Positions 31,165 to 37,714 of a stretch of 64,000 bases of DNA are shown here, one piece after another (the stretch's first letter is position 1; every line of letters starts with the position of its first letter). The translations under genes were made by a program, and so were the position numbers. The stretch is from Ruania halotolerans (lineage in GTDB: Bacteria; Actinomycetota; Actinomycetes; Actinomycetales; Beutenbergiaceae). Location of the stretch: NCBI RefSeq assembly GCF_021049285.1, contig NZ_CP088017.1:3545380-3609379 (forward strand), read 5' to 3'. The notes below the pieces were generated by a model. That model was not told the DNA's origin and did not search any database. It saw only the letters and a program-made list of their open reading frames with translations.

Positions 31165-32478
31165 TCAGCCGAAGTTCTGACCCTCACCACGATACGTCGG
31201 CACGCTCGAGTGCACCGATCCGGCGCGGACCAGGCGCACCTGATCAAAGCGCTCCATCAGCTCCCCGGCCTTCGCGTGCCGGAGCCACACCCGGGCACCA
31301 ACCGCCGGGCCCTGACGACCGGAGGGGTAGCGCAGGGGCGTTTGCACCTCACCGGCGCCCTCCGACCCGAGCAGCCGGGCGCCGTCCACCGGCCGGGGCA
31401 GACGGCTCGGGCGGGCAGGTCCGGAGGCCACATATCCACCACCGAAAGCTGTGGCGATGCGGGCCGCAGGGCGGCGCACCACATCCAGTCCGAAGAAGGC
31501 GGCGGGGCGAGGATCGAAGGCGTCGTAGCTGTCGAACAGCGTGGGGCACAGCAGCCCCGATCCGGCGGTGAGTTCGGTGATCGTGGGATCGGTGGCTGTC
31601 TGCTGCAACGATCCGGTCCCACCTCCGTTCACCAGGACCTCGCGCCCCAGGTGGTCTTCGAGTGCGCTGACCACGGCCGGACGGCGCGCGGCAAGGTCGC
31701 GCAAGGAGAGTCCCTTCATCACCTGCACGGCCGGGTTCCGCCATCCGGAGCCGTCCGGCACACCGGCCACCTGCGCCTCGTAGAACATCACCCCGCGTAC
31801 CCGCAGCCGGCCGGTCCGTTCCGTGGCCCGAGCCAGGCGCACCACATCCTCGGGGCTGCGCAGCGGGGACCTGCGTACGCCCAGGTGCGCCGAGAACGGA
31901 CCGAACCCGAGCCGTAGTGAGGCGTCCACGTCCAGGCAGACCTGCACCGGCGGCCCCGCCGAACTGCCCGCAGTGGACGCGTTCTCGGTTCGGTCGGTGC
32001 GCAAGCCGTCGGCGCGCATGAAGGCTCGCTCGAGCAGCGCCACCTGAGAGACGTCGTCGACCATCACAGTGATCGCCTGCCGGGCTGCTGGATCCTGGGC
32101 GAGGCGCACCAGCGAACCGGCGTCCACGCTCGGGTACCCCACGAGCACGTCCTCCACGCCGTCCTCGGCCAGCCACAGCGCCTCGGCCAGCGAGTACGCC
32201 ATCACTGAGGCGAAACCGGCATCGAGTGCACGATGGACGAGCTGGCGCACCCGCACCGACTTCGACGCCACACGCAAGGGGAGCCCCCCGGCCCGGGCGA
32301 GCAGGTCCGCGGCATTGGCATCGAAGGCATCGAGATCCACCACCGCGATCGGCGCCGCAAGCGATCGGGTGGCATCGCGCCACGGTGCCGGGCGCGCCGA
32401 TGTGGCCGAACCCCAGCCTGGCTGTGTGCCGGCATGGCCGACCGATCGTGCGGATCCCACCCTGCCGATACGCCTCAT
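31165..32478 (-). CDS. PLP-dependent amino acid deaminase/aldolase (D-threonine aldolase-like)
   Basis: A 437-residue fold-type III PLP enzyme with an alanine-racemase N-terminal barrel and a D-serine dehydratase-like C-terminal domain. The Schiff-base Lys lies in LRVASKSVRV, and the C-terminal HAKAGELMERFDQVRLV region carries the His expected to bind a divalent metal. Such proteins are annotated as amino-acid deaminase/aldolase; the substrate is unproven. The start is uncertain: the ATG at 32478 is used, but GTGs at 32493 and 32517 are in frame. It is divergent from the sulfate operon, with 262 bp between. Confidence 0.82.
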   Translation of the reverse strand: MRRIGRVGSARSVGHAGTQPGWGSATSARPAPWRDATRSLAAPIAVVDLDAFDANAADLLARAGGLPLRVASKSVRVRQLVHRALDAGFASVMAYSLAEALWLAEDGVEDVLVGYPSVDAGSLVRLAQDPAARQAITVMVDDVSQVALLERAFMRADGLRTDRTENASTAGSSAGPPVQVCLDVDASLRLGFGPFSAHLGVRRSPLRSPEDVVRLARATERTGRLRVRGVMFYEAQVAGVPDGSGWRNPAVQVMKGLSLRDLAARRPAVVSALEDHLGREVLVNGGGTGSLQQTATDPTITELTAGSGLLCPTLFDSYDAFDPRPAAFFGLDVVRRPAARIATAFGGGYVASGPARPSRLPRPVDGARLLGSEGAGEVQTPLRYPSGRQGPAVGARVWLRHAKAGELMERFDQVRLVRAGSVHSSVPTYRGEGQNFG

Positions 32479-32564
32479 CTGTTCATTCTCACCCACTTCC
32501 GCCGCGGGCGGGTCCACGATGCGGACTCTTCACGGGCACTGCCCAGCGAGCCGGGCCCCCGGGC

Positions 32565-32570
32565 TACCGT
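32565..32570 (+). promoter_or_regulatory. -10 element of the putative leader peptide/sulfate operon
   Basis: TACCGT fits the actinomycete TANNNT -10 pattern and ends 7 bases before the leader ATG, placing the expected transcription start at that ATG. No convincing -35 is seen, as is common in this phylum. Confidence 0.5.
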
Positions 32571-32577
32571 CGCCATC

Positions 32578-32655
32578 ATGTTCGCCCGCCCCGTGCCCCC
32601 GCAGCCTGCCCCGATGGCGCGCTCACGGCGAATGCCCGGCTGTCGCTGCCGCTGA
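32578..32655 (+). CDS. putative cysteine-containing leader peptide (uORF) of the sulfate operon
   Basis: A 25-codon reading frame (ATG 32578, TGA 32653). The peptide is Pro/Arg-rich and ends Gly-Cys-Arg-Cys-Arg-stop, with both cysteines among the last four codons. It lacks a ribosome site but starts 7 bases after a -10, so it would be translated leaderlessly. It ends 10 bases before a perfect 6-bp hairpin and 85 bases before the sir ATG. Short leaderless cysteine-rich uORFs are known cysteine-responsive attenuators in mycobacteria. The same role here is inference from position and content. Confidence 0.6.
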   Translation: MFARPVPPQPAPMARSRRMPGCRCR

Positions 32656-32665
32656 CGTCAGCCAG

Positions 32666-32683
32666 TCTCGCCGCCGAGCGAGA
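32666..32683 (+). promoter_or_regulatory. hairpin between leader peptide and sir
   Basis: TCTCGC (32666-32671) and GCGAGA (32678-32683) form a perfect 6-bp stem with a 6-nt loop, starting 10 nt after the leader stop codon. A ribosome stalled at the Cys codons could cover or free this stem. No T-run follows, so if it regulates, it is more likely by Rho or translation than as an intrinsic terminator. Confidence 0.45.
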
Positions 32684-32740
32684 GCGTCATCGCGGATCAG
32701 TACCGCCCAGCCCGCCTTCCAGGCCCCGTCGAGGAGCACC

Positions 32741-34486
32741 ATGACCGGCCAGACCGCCACCACCGAACGTCCCACTCCCCGCCCAGCCCGGCCGAAGCGC
32801 CCCAACGGTCAGTGGCTGGTGGACGGCAAGGAGCCGTTGAATCACAACGAGGCGTTCAAACAGGAAGACAACGGCCTCAACGTCCGCGAGCGCATCGAGC
32901 AGGTGTACTCCAAGGAGGGCTTCGACTCGATCTCCGGCGATGACCTGCACGGCCGCTTCCGTTGGTGGGGCCTGTACACCCAGCGCAAGCCGGGCATCGA
33001 CGGCGGGCGCACGGCCACCCTGGAACCGCATGAGCTCGAGGACAAGTACTTCATGCTCCGGGTGCGTATCGACGGCGGTGCGCTCACCACGGAGCAGCTG
33101 CGCGTGATCGCGGGGATCTCCGAGGAGTTCGCACGCGACTCCGCCGACATCACCGACAGGCAGAACATCCAGGTGCACTGGGTGCGGGTGGAGGATGTGC
33201 CGGAGATCTGGCGCCGTCTCGAGGCGGTCGGCCTGGGCACCACCGAGGCCTGCGGCGACGTGCCGCGGGTGGTACTCGGCAGCCCGGTGGCCGGGATCGC
33301 CGCGGACGAGATCCTCGATCCGAGCCCGGTGATCGAGGAGATCAACCGCCGCTACCTCGGGGTGCCCGAGCTGGCGAACCTGCCGCGCAAGTTCAAGACC
33401 GCGCTGACCGGCCACCCCAGCCAGGATGTGGTGCATGAGATCAATGACGTGGCGTTCGTGGGCCTGGAGCACCCCGAGCTCGGCCCGGGCTTCGATGTGT
33501 GGGTCGGCGGCGGGCTCTCGGCGAACCCGCGCCTGGGTGAGCGCCTGGGCGTGTTCGCCACGGCCGAGCAGGCACCGGATATCTGGCACGGAGTGGCGCA
33601 GATCTTTCGCGACTATGGCTACCGCCGGCTGCGCAACAAGGCCCGGCTGAAGTTCCTGCTCGCCGACTGGGGGCCGGAGAAGTTCCGCCAGGTGCTGCAG
33701 GAGGAGTACCTCGGCTACGCGCTGCCGGACGGTCCGCCCGCTCCGCAGCCGCGGATGCCCGGTGACCACGTGGGCGTGCACGCGCAGAAGGACGGGCGCT
33801 ACTACGTGGGCGCCGCACCCTATGTGGGCCGGGTCAGCGGAAGCATCCTGACGGCAGTGGCCGAGCTCGCCGAATCGGTGGGTTCGCAGCGGGTGCGCCT
33901 GACCCCGCACCAGAAGCTGCTGGTGCTGGATGTGCCCGAGGAGCACCTGGACACGGTGACCCGTGGGCTCAAGGACCTCGGCCTGGACCCGAACCCGAGC
34001 CCGTTCCGCCGCAGCACTATCGCCTGCACCGGGATCGAGTACTGCAAGCTCGCCATCGTCGAGACCAAGGCCACTGCAGCCCGGGCGATCGACGACCTGG
34101 AGCAGCGGCTCGCCGACGTGCCCGACCTGCGCCCCCTCACGCTGCACCTGAACGGATGCCCGAACTCGTGCGCGCGGATCCAGACGGCCGATATCGGCCT
34201 GAAGGGTCAGCTGGTGATGAACGACGACGGCGAGCAGGTTCCGGGCTTCCAGGTGCACCTGGGCGGGGGGCTGGCCTCCGAGGACCGGGAGGAGGCCGGG
34301 TTGGGCCGCACGGTGCGCGGGCTGAAGGTCACCAGCGAGGATCTGCCTGAGTACGTGGAACGGGTGACCCGCCGGTACCTGGCCGAGACCGAACAGGATT
34401 GTGACGGCGGCTCCGAGACCGAGAACGCCTCACGTGAGTCGTTCGCCTCGTGGGCCCGCCGCGCAGATGAGGAGGCCCTGACGTGA
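32741..34486 (+). CDS. sir: assimilatory sulfite reductase (ferredoxin), siroheme enzyme
   Basis: A 581-residue siroheme/[4Fe-4S] protein that reduces sulfite to sulfide. The cluster/siroheme cysteines are in ACTGIEYCK (Cys429, Cys435) and LNGCPNSCAR (Cys473, Cys477). Two ferredoxin-like half-domains each precede a siroheme-binding part. The N-terminal segment GRFRWWGLYTQR is typical of actinomycete sulfite reductase/NirA. The neighbours cysH-cysD-cysN argue for sulfite rather than nitrite as substrate. The ATG at 32741 has GAGGAG 5 bases upstream. It overlaps cysH by 4 bases. Confidence 0.95.
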   Translation: MTGQTATTERPTPRPARPKRPNGQWLVDGKEPLNHNEAFKQEDNGLNVRERIEQVYSKEGFDSISGDDLHGRFRWWGLYTQRKPGIDGGRTATLEPHELEDKYFMLRVRIDGGALTTEQLRVIAGISEEFARDSADITDRQNIQVHWVRVEDVPEIWRRLEAVGLGTTEACGDVPRVVLGSPVAGIAADEILDPSPVIEEINRRYLGVPELANLPRKFKTALTGHPSQDVVHEINDVAFVGLEHPELGPGFDVWVGGGLSANPRLGERLGVFATAEQAPDIWHGVAQIFRDYGYRRLRNKARLKFLLADWGPEKFRQVLQEEYLGYALPDGPPAPQPRMPGDHVGVHAQKDGRYYVGAAPYVGRVSGSILTAVAELAESVGSQRVRLTPHQKLLVLDVPEEHLDTVTRGLKDLGLDPNPSPFRRSTIACTGIEYCKLAIVETKATAARAIDDLEQRLADVPDLRPLTLHLNGCPNSCARIQTADIGLKGQLVMNDDGEQVPGFQVHLGGGLASEDREEAGLGRTVRGLKVTSEDLPEYVERVTRRYLAETEQDCDGGSETENASRESFASWARRADEEALT

Positions 34487-35325
34487 GCATCAGCGCACAG
34501 GCTGACGCCAGCCCGCTGGCGACCGCCCGACGGATCGCCCAGGAACGCCAGGCGGCACGGACTGCCGCGCGAGCCGCGCACGCCGAACGGCGGGCCTTGG
34601 CACCGGCGAAGCGGTCGCACGCCGAGCTGAAGGAGATCGTGGCCCGTGGCCAGGAGCTGCTGCACGGCTCCGGTGTGGGCGCAGCCGATGAGGCGAGCCC
34701 CGCTGAGGTGGTGGCATGGGCCGCGCGAGAGTTCGGCACCTCCCTGGCCGTGGCGTGCTCGATGGCAGACGCCGCGCTGCCGCACCTGGTCGCACAGTCC
34801 GCACCGTGGGTGGACGTGCTGTTCCTGGACACCGGGTACCACTTCGCCGAGACCCTCGGCACCCGCGAGCGCGTGGCGCATGAGCTGGACGTGACCGTGG
34901 TGGACGTGCTGCCGAACCTGACCGTGGCTGAGCAGGACACGCAGTACGGCAAGGACCTGTTCGCCCGGGATCCGGCCGCGTGCTGCGCGATGCGGAAAGT
35001 GGAGCCTCTGCAGCGCACGCTGGGGGGGTACGAAGCCTGGGTGACCGGCGTGCGCCGGGAAGAGGCACCCACCCGCGCGAACACTCCCCTGATCACCTGG
35101 GATGAGAAGAACGGCCTGGTGAAGATCAACCCGGTGGCCGCCTGGACCTCCGACGATCTGCAGCACTACGCCGAGACTCACGGCGTGACCATCAACCCTC
35201 TGCTGAACGACGGCTACCCCTCGATCGGCTGCGCCCCGTGCACGGCGCGCGTGGCACCCGGAGCCGACCCCCGATCCGGCCGCTGGGCCGGCCTCGACAA
35301 GACCGAATGCGGGCTGCACTCATGA
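34483..35325 (+). CDS. cysH: APS reductase (iron-sulfur CysH)
   Basis: A 280-residue adenylylsulfate reductase that makes sulfite from APS with thioredoxin. The Cys-Cys (167-168) and CAPC (250, 253) pairs bind the [4Fe-4S] cluster that marks APS-specific enzymes. The catalytic Cys276 lies in the C-terminal TECGLH. The 50 N-terminal residues are Ala/Arg-rich and dispensable-looking. The GTG at 34483 overlaps the sir stop. The absence of an APS kinase in the operon fits direct APS reduction. Confidence 0.95.
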   Translation: MSISAQADASPLATARRIAQERQAARTAARAAHAERRALAPAKRSHAELKEIVARGQELLHGSGVGAADEASPAEVVAWAAREFGTSLAVACSMADAALPHLVAQSAPWVDVLFLDTGYHFAETLGTRERVAHELDVTVVDVLPNLTVAEQDTQYGKDLFARDPAACCAMRKVEPLQRTLGGYEAWVTGVRREEAPTRANTPLITWDEKNGLVKINPVAAWTSDDLQHYAETHGVTINPLLNDGYPSIGCAPCTARVAPGADPRSGRWAGLDKTECGLHS

Positions 35326-36302
35326 GCATCGACCTGACGCACACCCACCGAACGACCGAGGCGGCTGGGCCGGCGGCGCACGCACGGGCACACCAGCGCT
35401 ACCGCCTCCCGCGAGCCGAGGCGCTGGAGAGTGAGAGCATCCACCTCATTCGCGAGGTGGTGGCCGAGTTCGAGCGCCCTGTGCTGCTGTTCTCCGGCGG
35501 CAAGGACTCAGTGGTGATGCTGCACCTGGCTGCGAAGGCGTTCTGGCCCGGCAAAGTGCCCTTCGGGGTGCTGCATGTGGACACCGGGCACAACTTTCCC
35601 GAGGTGCTCGAGTACAGAGACACCACTGCCGCCAGGCTCGACGTGAAGCTGCACGTGGCGACGGTGCAGGAGTACATCGACGACGGGCGCCTGCGGGAGC
35701 GTGCCGATGGCACCCGCAACCCGCTGCAGACGCAACCACTGCTCGATGCCATCACTGGCCACCGGTTCGACGCGGTATTCGGTGGCGGCCGGCGGGACGA
35801 GGAGAAGGCCCGGGCCAAGGAGCGGGTGATCTCGCTACGGGACGAGTTCGGTCAGTGGGACCCCCGCAATCAGCGACCCGAGCTGTGGAACCTCTACAAC
35901 GGCCGGCACCGCCCGGGTGAGCACGTGCGTGCCTTCCCCCTGTCGAACTGGACCGAGTTGGACGTGTGGCACTACATCGCCGCCGAGGGTATCGAGCTGC
36001 CCAGCCTCTACTACGCCCATCAGCGGGAGGTGTTCGACCGGGACGGGATGCTGCTCTCCGTGGGGGAGTTCGCACAACCGAAGACGGAGACGGAGCGTGC
36101 CAGTGTCCGATCTGAACAGGTGCGCTACCGCACCGTAGGTGACATGAGCTGCACCGGTGCGGTGCTCTCCGACGCAGCGACCCCGCAGGACGTGGTGGCC
36201 GAAGTGGCCGCTACCCGGATCACCGAGCGGGGCGCCACCCGCGCAGACGACCGCCTGTCCGAGGCCGCGATGGAGGACCGGAAGAAGGAGGGGTACTTCT
36301 GA
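35322..36302 (+). CDS. cysD: sulfate adenylyltransferase subunit 2
   Basis: A 326-residue ATP-pyrophosphatase-fold subunit that forms APS from ATP and sulfate with CysN. The PP-loop SGGKDSVVMLHLA is near residue 53, followed by FGVLHVDTGHNFPE and FGGGRRDEEKARAKER. The C-terminus ends in the usual RKKEGYF. The ATG at 35322 overlaps the cysH stop by 4 bases (ATGA). Confidence 0.97.
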   Translation: MSIDLTHTHRTTEAAGPAAHARAHQRYRLPRAEALESESIHLIREVVAEFERPVLLFSGGKDSVVMLHLAAKAFWPGKVPFGVLHVDTGHNFPEVLEYRDTTAARLDVKLHVATVQEYIDDGRLRERADGTRNPLQTQPLLDAITGHRFDAVFGGGRRDEEKARAKERVISLRDEFGQWDPRNQRPELWNLYNGRHRPGEHVRAFPLSNWTELDVWHYIAAEGIELPSLYYAHQREVFDRDGMLLSVGEFAQPKTETERASVRSEQVRYRTVGDMSCTGAVLSDAATPQDVVAEVAATRITERGATRADDRLSEAAMEDRKKEGYF

Positions 36303-37714
36303 TGGGTACCGCCGAGACCACCACCACGGGCGCCCCGCCCGCCCCCAGCACCCTCACCTGGAGCACCGTGCCCTCACCCGCCCCCCTCAGCGAGCCCGAC
36401 CTGGCCATCGACCCGACCGCCGTCGACCCCGATGCGGTGGACCCCACCGCGGCCGGCACGCTGCTCCGCCTGGCCACCGCCGGCTCGGTGGACGACGGAA
36501 AATCCACCCTGGTGGGCCGGCTGCTGTACGACTCCAAATCGGTGCTCGCCGACCAGTGGGAGTCGATCGAGCGGGTCTCCACCGACCGCGGCCAGGACAC
36601 CGCCGATCTGGCTCTGCTCACCGACGGCCTGCGCGCCGAACGCGAGCAGGGCATCACGATCGACGTGGCCTACCGCTACTTCGCGACGGCCACCCGTTCC
36701 TTCATCCTGGCCGACTGCCCCGGCCACGTGCAGTACACCCGCAATACCGTGACGGGTGCCTCGACGGCGGACGCCGTCGTCCTGCTGATCGACGCCCGCA
36801 AGGGTGTGCTGGAGCAGACCAGGCGACACCTCGCCGTTGTGGGTCTGCTGCGGGTGCCACATGTGGTGGTGGCGGTGAACAAGATCGACCTGGTGGACTA
36901 CTCCCGGGAGCGGTTCACCGAGTTGGCCGAGGAGATCCGCGACGCCGCCACCGCCCTCGGGGTGCCGCACGTGCACCCGCTGCCGGTGTCAGCGCTGGTG
37001 GGCGACAACGTGGTGACCCGGGCGCAGGACACGATGCCCTGGTACGAGGGGCCGAGTCTGCTTGAGCTACTCGAGTCGCTGCCGGTGGCCGACACCCCGG
37101 GCACCGAATCGTTCCGCCTCCCGGTGCAGTCGGTGCTGCGCCCGCAGGCGGCGGCCGTCTCCGAGGAGTACCGCGAGTACCGCGGCTATGCCGGGCAGAT
37201 TGCCGCCGGTGTGGTGCGGGTGGGCGACCCCGTGGTGGTCCTGCCCAGCGGGCAGCGCACCACTGTGGAAGGGATCGACACCCCTGACGGCGAACTGGCC
37301 GAAGCCTTCGCACCACAGTCGGTCAGTGTGCGGCTCAGCGACGACATCGACGTGGCGCGCGGTGATCTGATCGCCGCCGCGGCGGACGCGCCCGCGGGCA
37401 CGAAGGAGCTGGAAGGAACCGTGACCTGGCTCAGCGATCAGCCGCTGCGCCCCGGGGCGCGGGTGCTGCTCAAGCACACCACCCGCACGGTGCGGGCGAT
37501 CGTGTCCGAGGTGACCGGGCGGCTGGACCTGCTCAGCGCCACCCCGGGGCCCGCCGAGGAACTGGTGCTGAATGACATCGGCACGCTGCGGATCACGCTG
37601 GCAGACGCCGTGGTGGCGGAGGACTACACGCGATCACGCCGCACCGGCGCATTCCTGCTGATCGATGCCCACGACGGCAACACCCTCGCCGCAGGGATGG
37701 TCGGCACCCCGTAG
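36302..37714 (+). CDS. cysN: sulfate adenylyltransferase subunit 1 (GTPase)
   Basis: A 470-residue translation-factor-like GTPase that drives APS synthesis. G1 is GSVDDGKST, G3 DCPGHVQYT and G4 NKIDLVD, and EF-Tu-like beta-barrel domains follow. The about 50 N-terminal residues are a Pro/Thr/Ala-rich extension. It ends after the barrels, so there is no fused CysC APS-kinase domain. The ATG shares a base with the cysD stop (TGATG). It is the last gene before a strong terminator. Confidence 0.96.
   Translation: MGTAETTTTGAPPAPSTLTWSTVPSPAPLSEPDLAIDPTAVDPDAVDPTAAGTLLRLATAGSVDDGKSTLVGRLLYDSKSVLADQWESIERVSTDRGQDTADLALLTDGLRAEREQGITIDVAYRYFATATRSFILADCPGHVQYTRNTVTGASTADAVVLLIDARKGVLEQTRRHLAVVGLLRVPHVVVAVNKIDLVDYSRERFTELAEEIRDAATALGVPHVHPLPVSALVGDNVVTRAQDTMPWYEGPSLLELLESLPVADTPGTESFRLPVQSVLRPQAAAVSEEYREYRGYAGQIAAGVVRVGDPVVVLPSGQRTTVEGIDTPDGELAEAFAPQSVSVRLSDDIDVARGDLIAAAADAPAGTKELEGTVTWLSDQPLRPGARVLLKHTTRTVRAIVSEVTGRLDLLSATPGPAEELVLNDIGTLRITLADAVVAEDYTRSRRTGAFLLIDAHDGNTLAAGMVGTP

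Follow-up and report, generated by a model that had tools for sequence, protein, structure and literature searches.

The window analyzed here is a stretch of 64,000 nucleotides (nt) of the Ruania halotolerans genome (one contig of 4.27 Mb; NZ_CP088017.1, positions 3,545,380 to 3,609,379 of the forward strand). Upstream of its sir-cysH-cysD-cysN genes it contains a short upstream open reading frame (uORF) with cysteine codons at its end, which very probably serves as a leaderless, cysteine-responsive, ribosome-mediated attenuator of this operon, of the mycobacterial kind. Conservation in relatives argues for the sensor part of this proposal, and the leaderless start, the ribosome pausing and the response to cysteine are what we infer for it. 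The features of the uORF region are:

32565..32570, plus strand: -10-like element TACCGT, located 7 nt (CGCCATC) upstream of the uORF ATG according to the sequence
32578..32655, plus strand: leaderless-type short ORF for a putative leader peptide, translated as MFARPVPPQPAPMARSRRMPGCRCR and a stop
32629..32642, plus strand: CGAATGCCCGGCTG, 14 nt leading into the first Cys codon (R-M-P-G-C), invariant in the four uORF-bearing congeners
32641..32643, plus strand: Cys codon TGT, residue 22
32647..32649, plus strand: Cys codon TGC, residue 24
32656..32740, plus strand: spacer of 85 nt between the uORF stop and the sir ATG

The uORF starts with the ATG at 32578, comprises 25 codons and has the 3′ end GGC TGT CGC TGC CGC TGA, with the stop at 32653-32655. 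The initial annotation had described a frame of this length beginning 7 bases after a -10 element and ending in Cys-Arg-Cys-Arg-stop, which was correct to the base. A consensus scan upstream of sir revealed no sigma-70-type promoter with a -35 box. In the entire 64 kb, only four short ORFs on either strand (8-60 codons) are preceded by TANNNT 6-8 nt before an ATG or GTG, and the sir uORF is the only one among them with two or more Cys among its last eight codons. Its peptide, which also carries Arg at residues 23 and 25 and many Pro and Arg residues before them, matched no NCBIfam family at E ≤ 1.

Judging from the spacing to the -10 element, transcription would start with the ATG at 32578 or no more than one or two bases away from it, and ribosomes would load at the 5′ end and translate the 25-codon frame. 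When Cys-tRNA is scarce, they would pause at TGT 32641 and TGC 32647 and expression of sir-cysH-cysD-cysN would presumably rise; when Cys-tRNA is plentiful, the ribosome would finish and leave, and the operon would be attenuated. The pause might be transmitted either by freeing the sir ribosome-binding site or by protecting the C-rich spacer against Rho.

Whether relatives conserve the terminal Cys codons had been set as a test beforehand, and such conservation was observed both in the genus (four of five congeners) and in the order (17 of 88 regions). The family set comprised 24 genomes, eight of which possess a sir ortholog with at least 69% identity, namely five of the eight genomes of the window's genus and three of genus g8. 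Within the former five, the uORF is present in four, the window included, and its Cys codons are clustered near the stop. The peptides end with RRMPGCRCR in the window, GRMPGCCCRCC in G015 and SRMPGCRCRCH in G017 and G019. The middle of the frame drifts among these congeners, and CGAATGCCCGGCTG is unchanged in all four. The -10-like element reads TACCGT in the uORF-bearing congeners, with a spacer of 6 nt in G019, and TAGCGT in the fifth congener, G020. Arg 23 of the window peptide (CGC) aligns with a Cys (TGC) in G015, and Arg 25 is Arg there, too. As the alternation varies among the congeners, it is Cys that is kept, not Cys-Arg; the alternation emphasized in the initial annotation thus holds for the window and not as a conserved trait. 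In genus g8 (L007, L008, and L009, corresponding to G014, G013, and G012), no Cys uORF precedes sir in any of the three genomes, and sir itself may be leaderless behind a weak -10 region.

For a survey of the order, sir was searched in 297 genomes and found in 145 (E ≤ 1e-150). The 88 sir upstream regions examined consisted of 80 fetched regions (a small number for each genus; contig ends truncated two of the 80) and the eight of the family. A uORF was scored when TANNNT occurred 4-9 nt before an ATG or GTG opening a frame of 8-60 codons whose last eight include two or more Cys. Such an ORF was present in 17 of the 88 regions, compared to a mean of 0.05 of 88 in dinucleotide shuffles (20 rounds) and 0 of 88 on the reverse strand. 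The passes were confined to four families, f9 (Cellulomonadaceae-like, 9/18), f3 (3/3), f13 (1/1) and the window's family (4/8), and the ten remaining families had none. When Cys was replaced in the search by one of eleven other amino acids (W, H, M, F, Y, K, N, D, I, Q, and E; the commoner A, G, L, P, R, S, T, and V lay outside this control), 0-1 of the 88 regions passed for each. In the sequences compared, conservation of the uORF is therefore cysteine-specific and beyond chance. That the frame is a chance ORF beside a chance TANNNT has next to no probability: the pattern is loose, but the excess over the shuffles, the specificity for cysteine and the conservation within the genus are at odds with it.

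In a set of named loci, the best 80 of 592 sir matches in GTDB-species contigs, 13 passed the same search. These belonged to three Oerskovia, two Cellulosimicrobium, Sediminihabitans, Sanguibacter suarezii, Luteimicrobium, Cellulomonas bogoriensis, Promicromonospora, Pengzhenrongella, Isoptericola and one metagenome-assembled genome. The Arthrobacter, Microbacterium and Brevibacterium loci of this set did not pass, nor did those of Myceligenerans and Antribacter, in which the Cys-bearing frames extend beyond the cluster. Among the 30 best-scoring f9 loci, two were already part of the survey, and the 28 counted separately all passed; lower-scoring f9 loci were sampled by the survey alone, where half have no uORF. 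The spacer from the -10 element to the ATG was 7 nt in 15/17 uORFs of the survey, 11/13 of the named set and 26/28 of the further f9 loci.

The three sets overlap in species and together contain 39 distinct peptides. These had been selected for terminal Cys and contain on average 3.56 Cys and 1.15 Arg in their last nine codons. A contiguous Cys run is found in G015 (CCC) and in many Cellulomonadaceae-like relatives, and several peptides end with CCCC or CCCCC without any Arg there. It is very unlikely that the frame senses arginine, or a Pro/Arg-rich nascent chain, instead of cysteine. The two Arg residues at its end and the many Pro and Arg upstream would suit such a function, and arginine itself was outside the eleven amino acids of the specificity control, but the prevalence of Cys over Arg in the relatives, the Arg-free ends and an operon serving cysteine all disagree with it.

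Frames resembling R-R-H-V-D or L-L-V-T-S-R-H were noticed in 15 of the 88 regions with a motif made by eye and without a control. Those of the R-R-H-V-D type, most with Cys near the end, occur at twelve loci between L126 and L177 in several other families, and some Cellulomonadaceae-like peptides bear a similar L-L-V-T-S-R-H stretch. The R-R-H-V-D-like frames may represent a further form of an ancient sir leader.

The leaders of 24 relatives, 23 Cellulomonadaceae-like and one of f13, share three sequence arms between the uORF and sir:

arm 1: GCGCC, 2-3 nt after the uORF stop, in 23 of 24 rows
arm 2: GGGCGCGCG-like, starting 42-64 nt after the uORF stop
arm 3: CGCGYGYCC-like, starting 30-42 nt before the sir ATG

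RNAalifold chose the pairing of arms 2 and 3 for an alignment of 22 leaders and that of arms 1 and 2 for a trimmed alignment; such alternate consensus folds are what competing arms would give. The helix of arms 2 and 3 pairs 91.6% of the cells, and its covariation score of 0.253, calculated with the same rows from which the structure was derived, was equalled by 1 of 500 shuffles (slid versions reached at most 0.140). Own arms paired better than swapped ones, with 126 of 5000 permutations as good for 11 groups and 134 of 5000 for the 24 rows, related rows being treated as independent. Arms 1 and 2 showed no covariation, arm 1 being nearly invariant. Pairing of arm 3 with the Shine-Dalgarno (SD) sequence in the relatives was also considered and found unconvincing (337 of 5000 permutations as good for 11 groups, 711 of 5000 for 24 rows).

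Masking the RNA up to 10 nt past the uORF stop lowered the modelled cost of opening the SD by a mean of 1.54 kcal/mol in 14 relatives; the same mask on shuffles gave 0.32 (standard deviation 0.36), and none of 20 was as high. As exceptions, L208 changed in the opposite direction and L030 and L106 barely changed. Over all 24 leaders, the cost fell in 15 and rose in 3 by more than 0.5. In 25 leaders, the mean cost was 7.1 for the free RNA and 6.7 when a ribosome occupied the first Cys of the cluster; it was 5.9 for a ribosome at the last Cys and 5.7 for one at the stop. Rfam contained no match to the loci of 16 relatives (E ≤ 0.1). A covariance model built from 22 leaders and run on 33 sources clearly matched four loci outside its build set (L024, L026, L031, and L094). 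We tentatively consider, at somewhat less than even confidence, that the Cellulomonadaceae-like Cys uORF is wired to an uncatalogued three-arm RNA switch, and that the window's genus possesses the sensor without the switch. In such a switch, arms 1 and 3 would compete for arm 2, and a ribosome pausing towards the end of the Cys cluster would cover arm 1, allowing arms 2 and 3 to pair and freeing the SD. The same tentative proposal includes a series from a poly-Cys peptide with switch over a minimal Cys-Arg sensor to loss in one congener. It is weakened because the mask is blind to stalling as opposed to termination and because the model misses several uORF-bearing relatives.

A number of results weigh against the attenuator or against one of its steps. 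The window uORF has just two Cys codons and no run. G020 (L006) has sir behind a leader without Cys codons; a single deletion from the middle of the uORF to just before the SD removed the Cys codons, the stop and the spacer, and left a truncated leaderless-type frame of 105 nt which extends over the sir start, located 64 nt after the ATG of this frame. No uORF of the type searched for is present in 71 of the 88 survey regions and 67 of the 80 named loci. The minimum free energy of the window leader was no better than that of shuffles (z -0.12). Opening the window SD was calculated to cost 3.7 in the free RNA, 4.0 with a ribosome over the stop and 3.3 with a ribosome further back; the values were 6.8, 7.7, and 6.9 with 18 nt more of sir, and 6.5 in all four states with other boundaries. 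For G017 and G019 the cost fell by 2-3 kcal/mol in one model run and hardly in a second. Concerning the relatives, pairs of arms 2 and 3 changed on both sides were as frequent in 312 of 500 shuffles, and further pair types in 121 of 500. A ribosome at the first Cys of the cluster gave a mean gain of 0.38 in the 25 leaders (7/25 above 1); the mask is appropriate for a ribosome that has reached the last Cys or the stop, and a stalled ribosome is not separated from a terminating one. The covariance model did not match the window leader (E ≤ 1), hit the right place without significance in the uORF-bearing L032, L035, L061, and L003 (G015; E 0.21-0.44) and did not touch the uORF-bearing L036, L108, and L204. 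These misses indicate that only some of the uORF-bearing relatives possess the element.

Two further structures lie in the window leader, upstream of sir and around its SD:

32666..32683, plus strand: perfect 6-bp hairpin TCTCGC-CGCCGA-GCGAGA, starting 10 bases past the uORF stop
32722..32750, plus strand: GGCC...GGCC flanking the sir SD and AUG, a predicted local hairpin whose sequence is kept in the congeners
32731..32736, plus strand: SD of sir, GAGGAG according to the sequence

The 6-bp hairpin exists exactly where and as the initial annotation had placed it, but its significance did not hold up. Of 2000 dinucleotide shuffles made from the 85-nt spacer, 165 (8%) contained a perfect hairpin of at least 6 bp with a loop of 3-8 nt, and the window hairpin is not kept in the congener alignment, although by reading G015 could form a shifted version of 4 bp. 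With a frequency near chance, no conservation and no terminator-like site in 32400-32900, it was rejected as a conserved terminator or anti-terminator. Rfam covariance models gave no match in 32440-32800 (E ≤ 1), and the whole window yielded a single tRNA at the gathering threshold. The GGCC...GGCC hairpin persisted in the model whether or not a stalled ribosome was included. Relief of SD sequestration by a stalled ribosome was thus unsupported by folding for the window.

Since folding, terminator search and hairpin provide no support in the window, a path via Rho is a serious rival for the transmission step; the sensor would be the same. According to this alternative, which we regard as possible though less likely than not, the C-rich spacer would be inaccessible to Rho as long as a ribosome is stalled upstream, and a ribosome that finishes would expose it, with transcription stopping before sir. 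The first 72 nt of the spacer, considered on their own, contain 44% C, 28% G and 20 YC dimers. The path would agree with the negative search for an intrinsic terminator (32400-32900) and with the lack of a clear change in the modelled SD accessibility of the window, and Rho was proposed earlier for cys leader peptides in Actinobacteria, as stated in passages of PMC1262725. The RNA element of the relatives, in contrast, points to release of the SD.

An element further upstream bears on a different alternative:

32512..32526, strand not assigned: GTCCACGATGCGGAC, conserved upstream element, identical in all five congeners with sir

Its core CCACGATGCGG also occurs upstream of cysK (G000, 2834616-2834628), and CCACGATGTGG precedes sir in two of the three g8 relatives, the third having a one-base variant. 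A search with the operator core gave 12 matches, sir and cysK among them, compared to 3 control matches. It is possible that GTCCACGATGCGGAC is a transcription factor operator of a sulfur regulon. The uORF might then be a relic, with sir mainly under the control of a transcription factor binding at this site. The identity of the element in all five congeners, its core before cysK, its retention together with the promoter in G020 despite the loss of the uORF end, and the small number of Cys codons in the window frame would fit this view. We nevertheless consider it improbable, because the Cys end and the 14 nt before it are kept in four of five congeners while the middle of the frame drifts. 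The 600 nt preceding cysK contained no frame of 5-60 codons with two or more Cys. Among 117 loci of the same genome (L214-L330), 90 of which came from three pattern searches (30 loci each of 166, 196, and 218 places), only the sir uORF and two further matches were detected, one of the latter inside a long ORF; given this coverage, the genome may contain more uORFs of the kind. For the TIGR00971 sulfate-binding protein there was no match at E ≤ 0.001.

In mycobacteria, leaderless short ORFs through which the ribosome senses cysteine are a known means of control. A cysteine response was reportedly shown in M. smegmatis (Canestrari 2020, Mol Microbiol 114:93). Leaderless Cys-rich uORFs of mycobacteria are described in passages of Shell 2015 (PMC4633059), and the precedent also appears in parts of PMC9031893, PMC13236596, and PMC9094748, which cite Canestrari 2020. 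The window uORF shares with the mycobacterial polycysteine ORFs the leaderless-type start, the short frame, the Cys codons near the stop and the position before a sulfur/cysteine operon. It differs by its two Cys codons alternating with Arg (C-R-C-R) in another order, whereas the mycobacterial ORFs have a contiguous Cys run; in addition, SD sequestration in the window is unsupported by folding. As the contiguous run is absent in the window, we classify the uORF as a variant and not as a member of the mycobacterial kind. The suggestion of the initial annotation, a variant in another lineage of the mycobacterial-type leaderless Cys attenuator, is the best explanation.

In the passages considered, Seliverstov et al. 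(PMC1262725) predicted cys leader peptides for Mycobacterium, Propionibacterium acnes and Bifidobacterium longum; these have their Cys runs close to the stop and lack a terminator, and Rho was suggested. These leaders resemble the window with respect to the Cys codons near the stop and the absence of a terminator hairpin; the word 'leaderless' does not occur in that paper, and the lineage of the window is not among the species named in these passages. A classical trp-type transcription attenuator likewise has leader-peptide codons for the end product, but it includes an intrinsic terminator, of which none was found between the uORF and sir (32400-32900). Further Cys-containing leaders are represented by the NCBIfam families NF042936 ('Ms4527A family Cys-rich leader peptide') and NF042934 ('putative leader peptide'). 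Presumably, Ms4527A is located before a sulfite reductase. Two peptides encoded before sir in other families of the order scored against NF042936/NF042934 below the curated cut-offs, and the window peptide and ten relatives matched neither at E ≤ 1. For Beutenbergiaceae and Cellulomonadaceae no report of such a leader was found in a search of titles and abstracts, most subscription papers lying outside it. The same geometry occurs at sir in several families of another actinobacterial order, beyond the mycobacteria, which suggests that sulfate assimilation may be controlled in this manner more widely among actinobacteria. The natural deletion in one species and the RNA element in many others make the transmission step comparable across lineages. 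In Streptomyces lividans, a leaderless metL, MSTTSDRTPATEATTTPGARCMCRRMCAF, located before metNIQ is called methionine-dependent in a passage of PMC8079986. The end of metL given there, C-M-C-R-R-M-C, looks at least as much like a cysteine leader.

The genes downstream of the uORF are arranged as follows:

32741..34486, plus strand: sir, nitrite/sulfite reductase family (Pfam NIR_SIR and NIR_SIR_ferr above the cut-off, NCBIfam below)
34483..35325, plus strand: cysH, (P)APS reductase
35322..36302, plus strand: cysD, sulfate adenylyltransferase small subunit (TIGR02039 above the cut-off), with a start chosen by us within a longer ORF starting at 35238
36302..37714, plus strand: cysN, sulfate adenylyltransferase large subunit (TIGR02034 above the cut-off)

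Successive genes overlap by 1-4 nt. By its operon context, sir is the predicted sulfite reductase, and the Pfam and NCBIfam families agree with the initial annotation that the uORF precedes a sulfide-making sir-cysH-cysD-cysN operon. On the minus strand, a divergent gene at 31165-32517 encodes a protein with an alanine-racemase N-terminal domain (Pfam) and has its intergenic region in common with the sir promoter.

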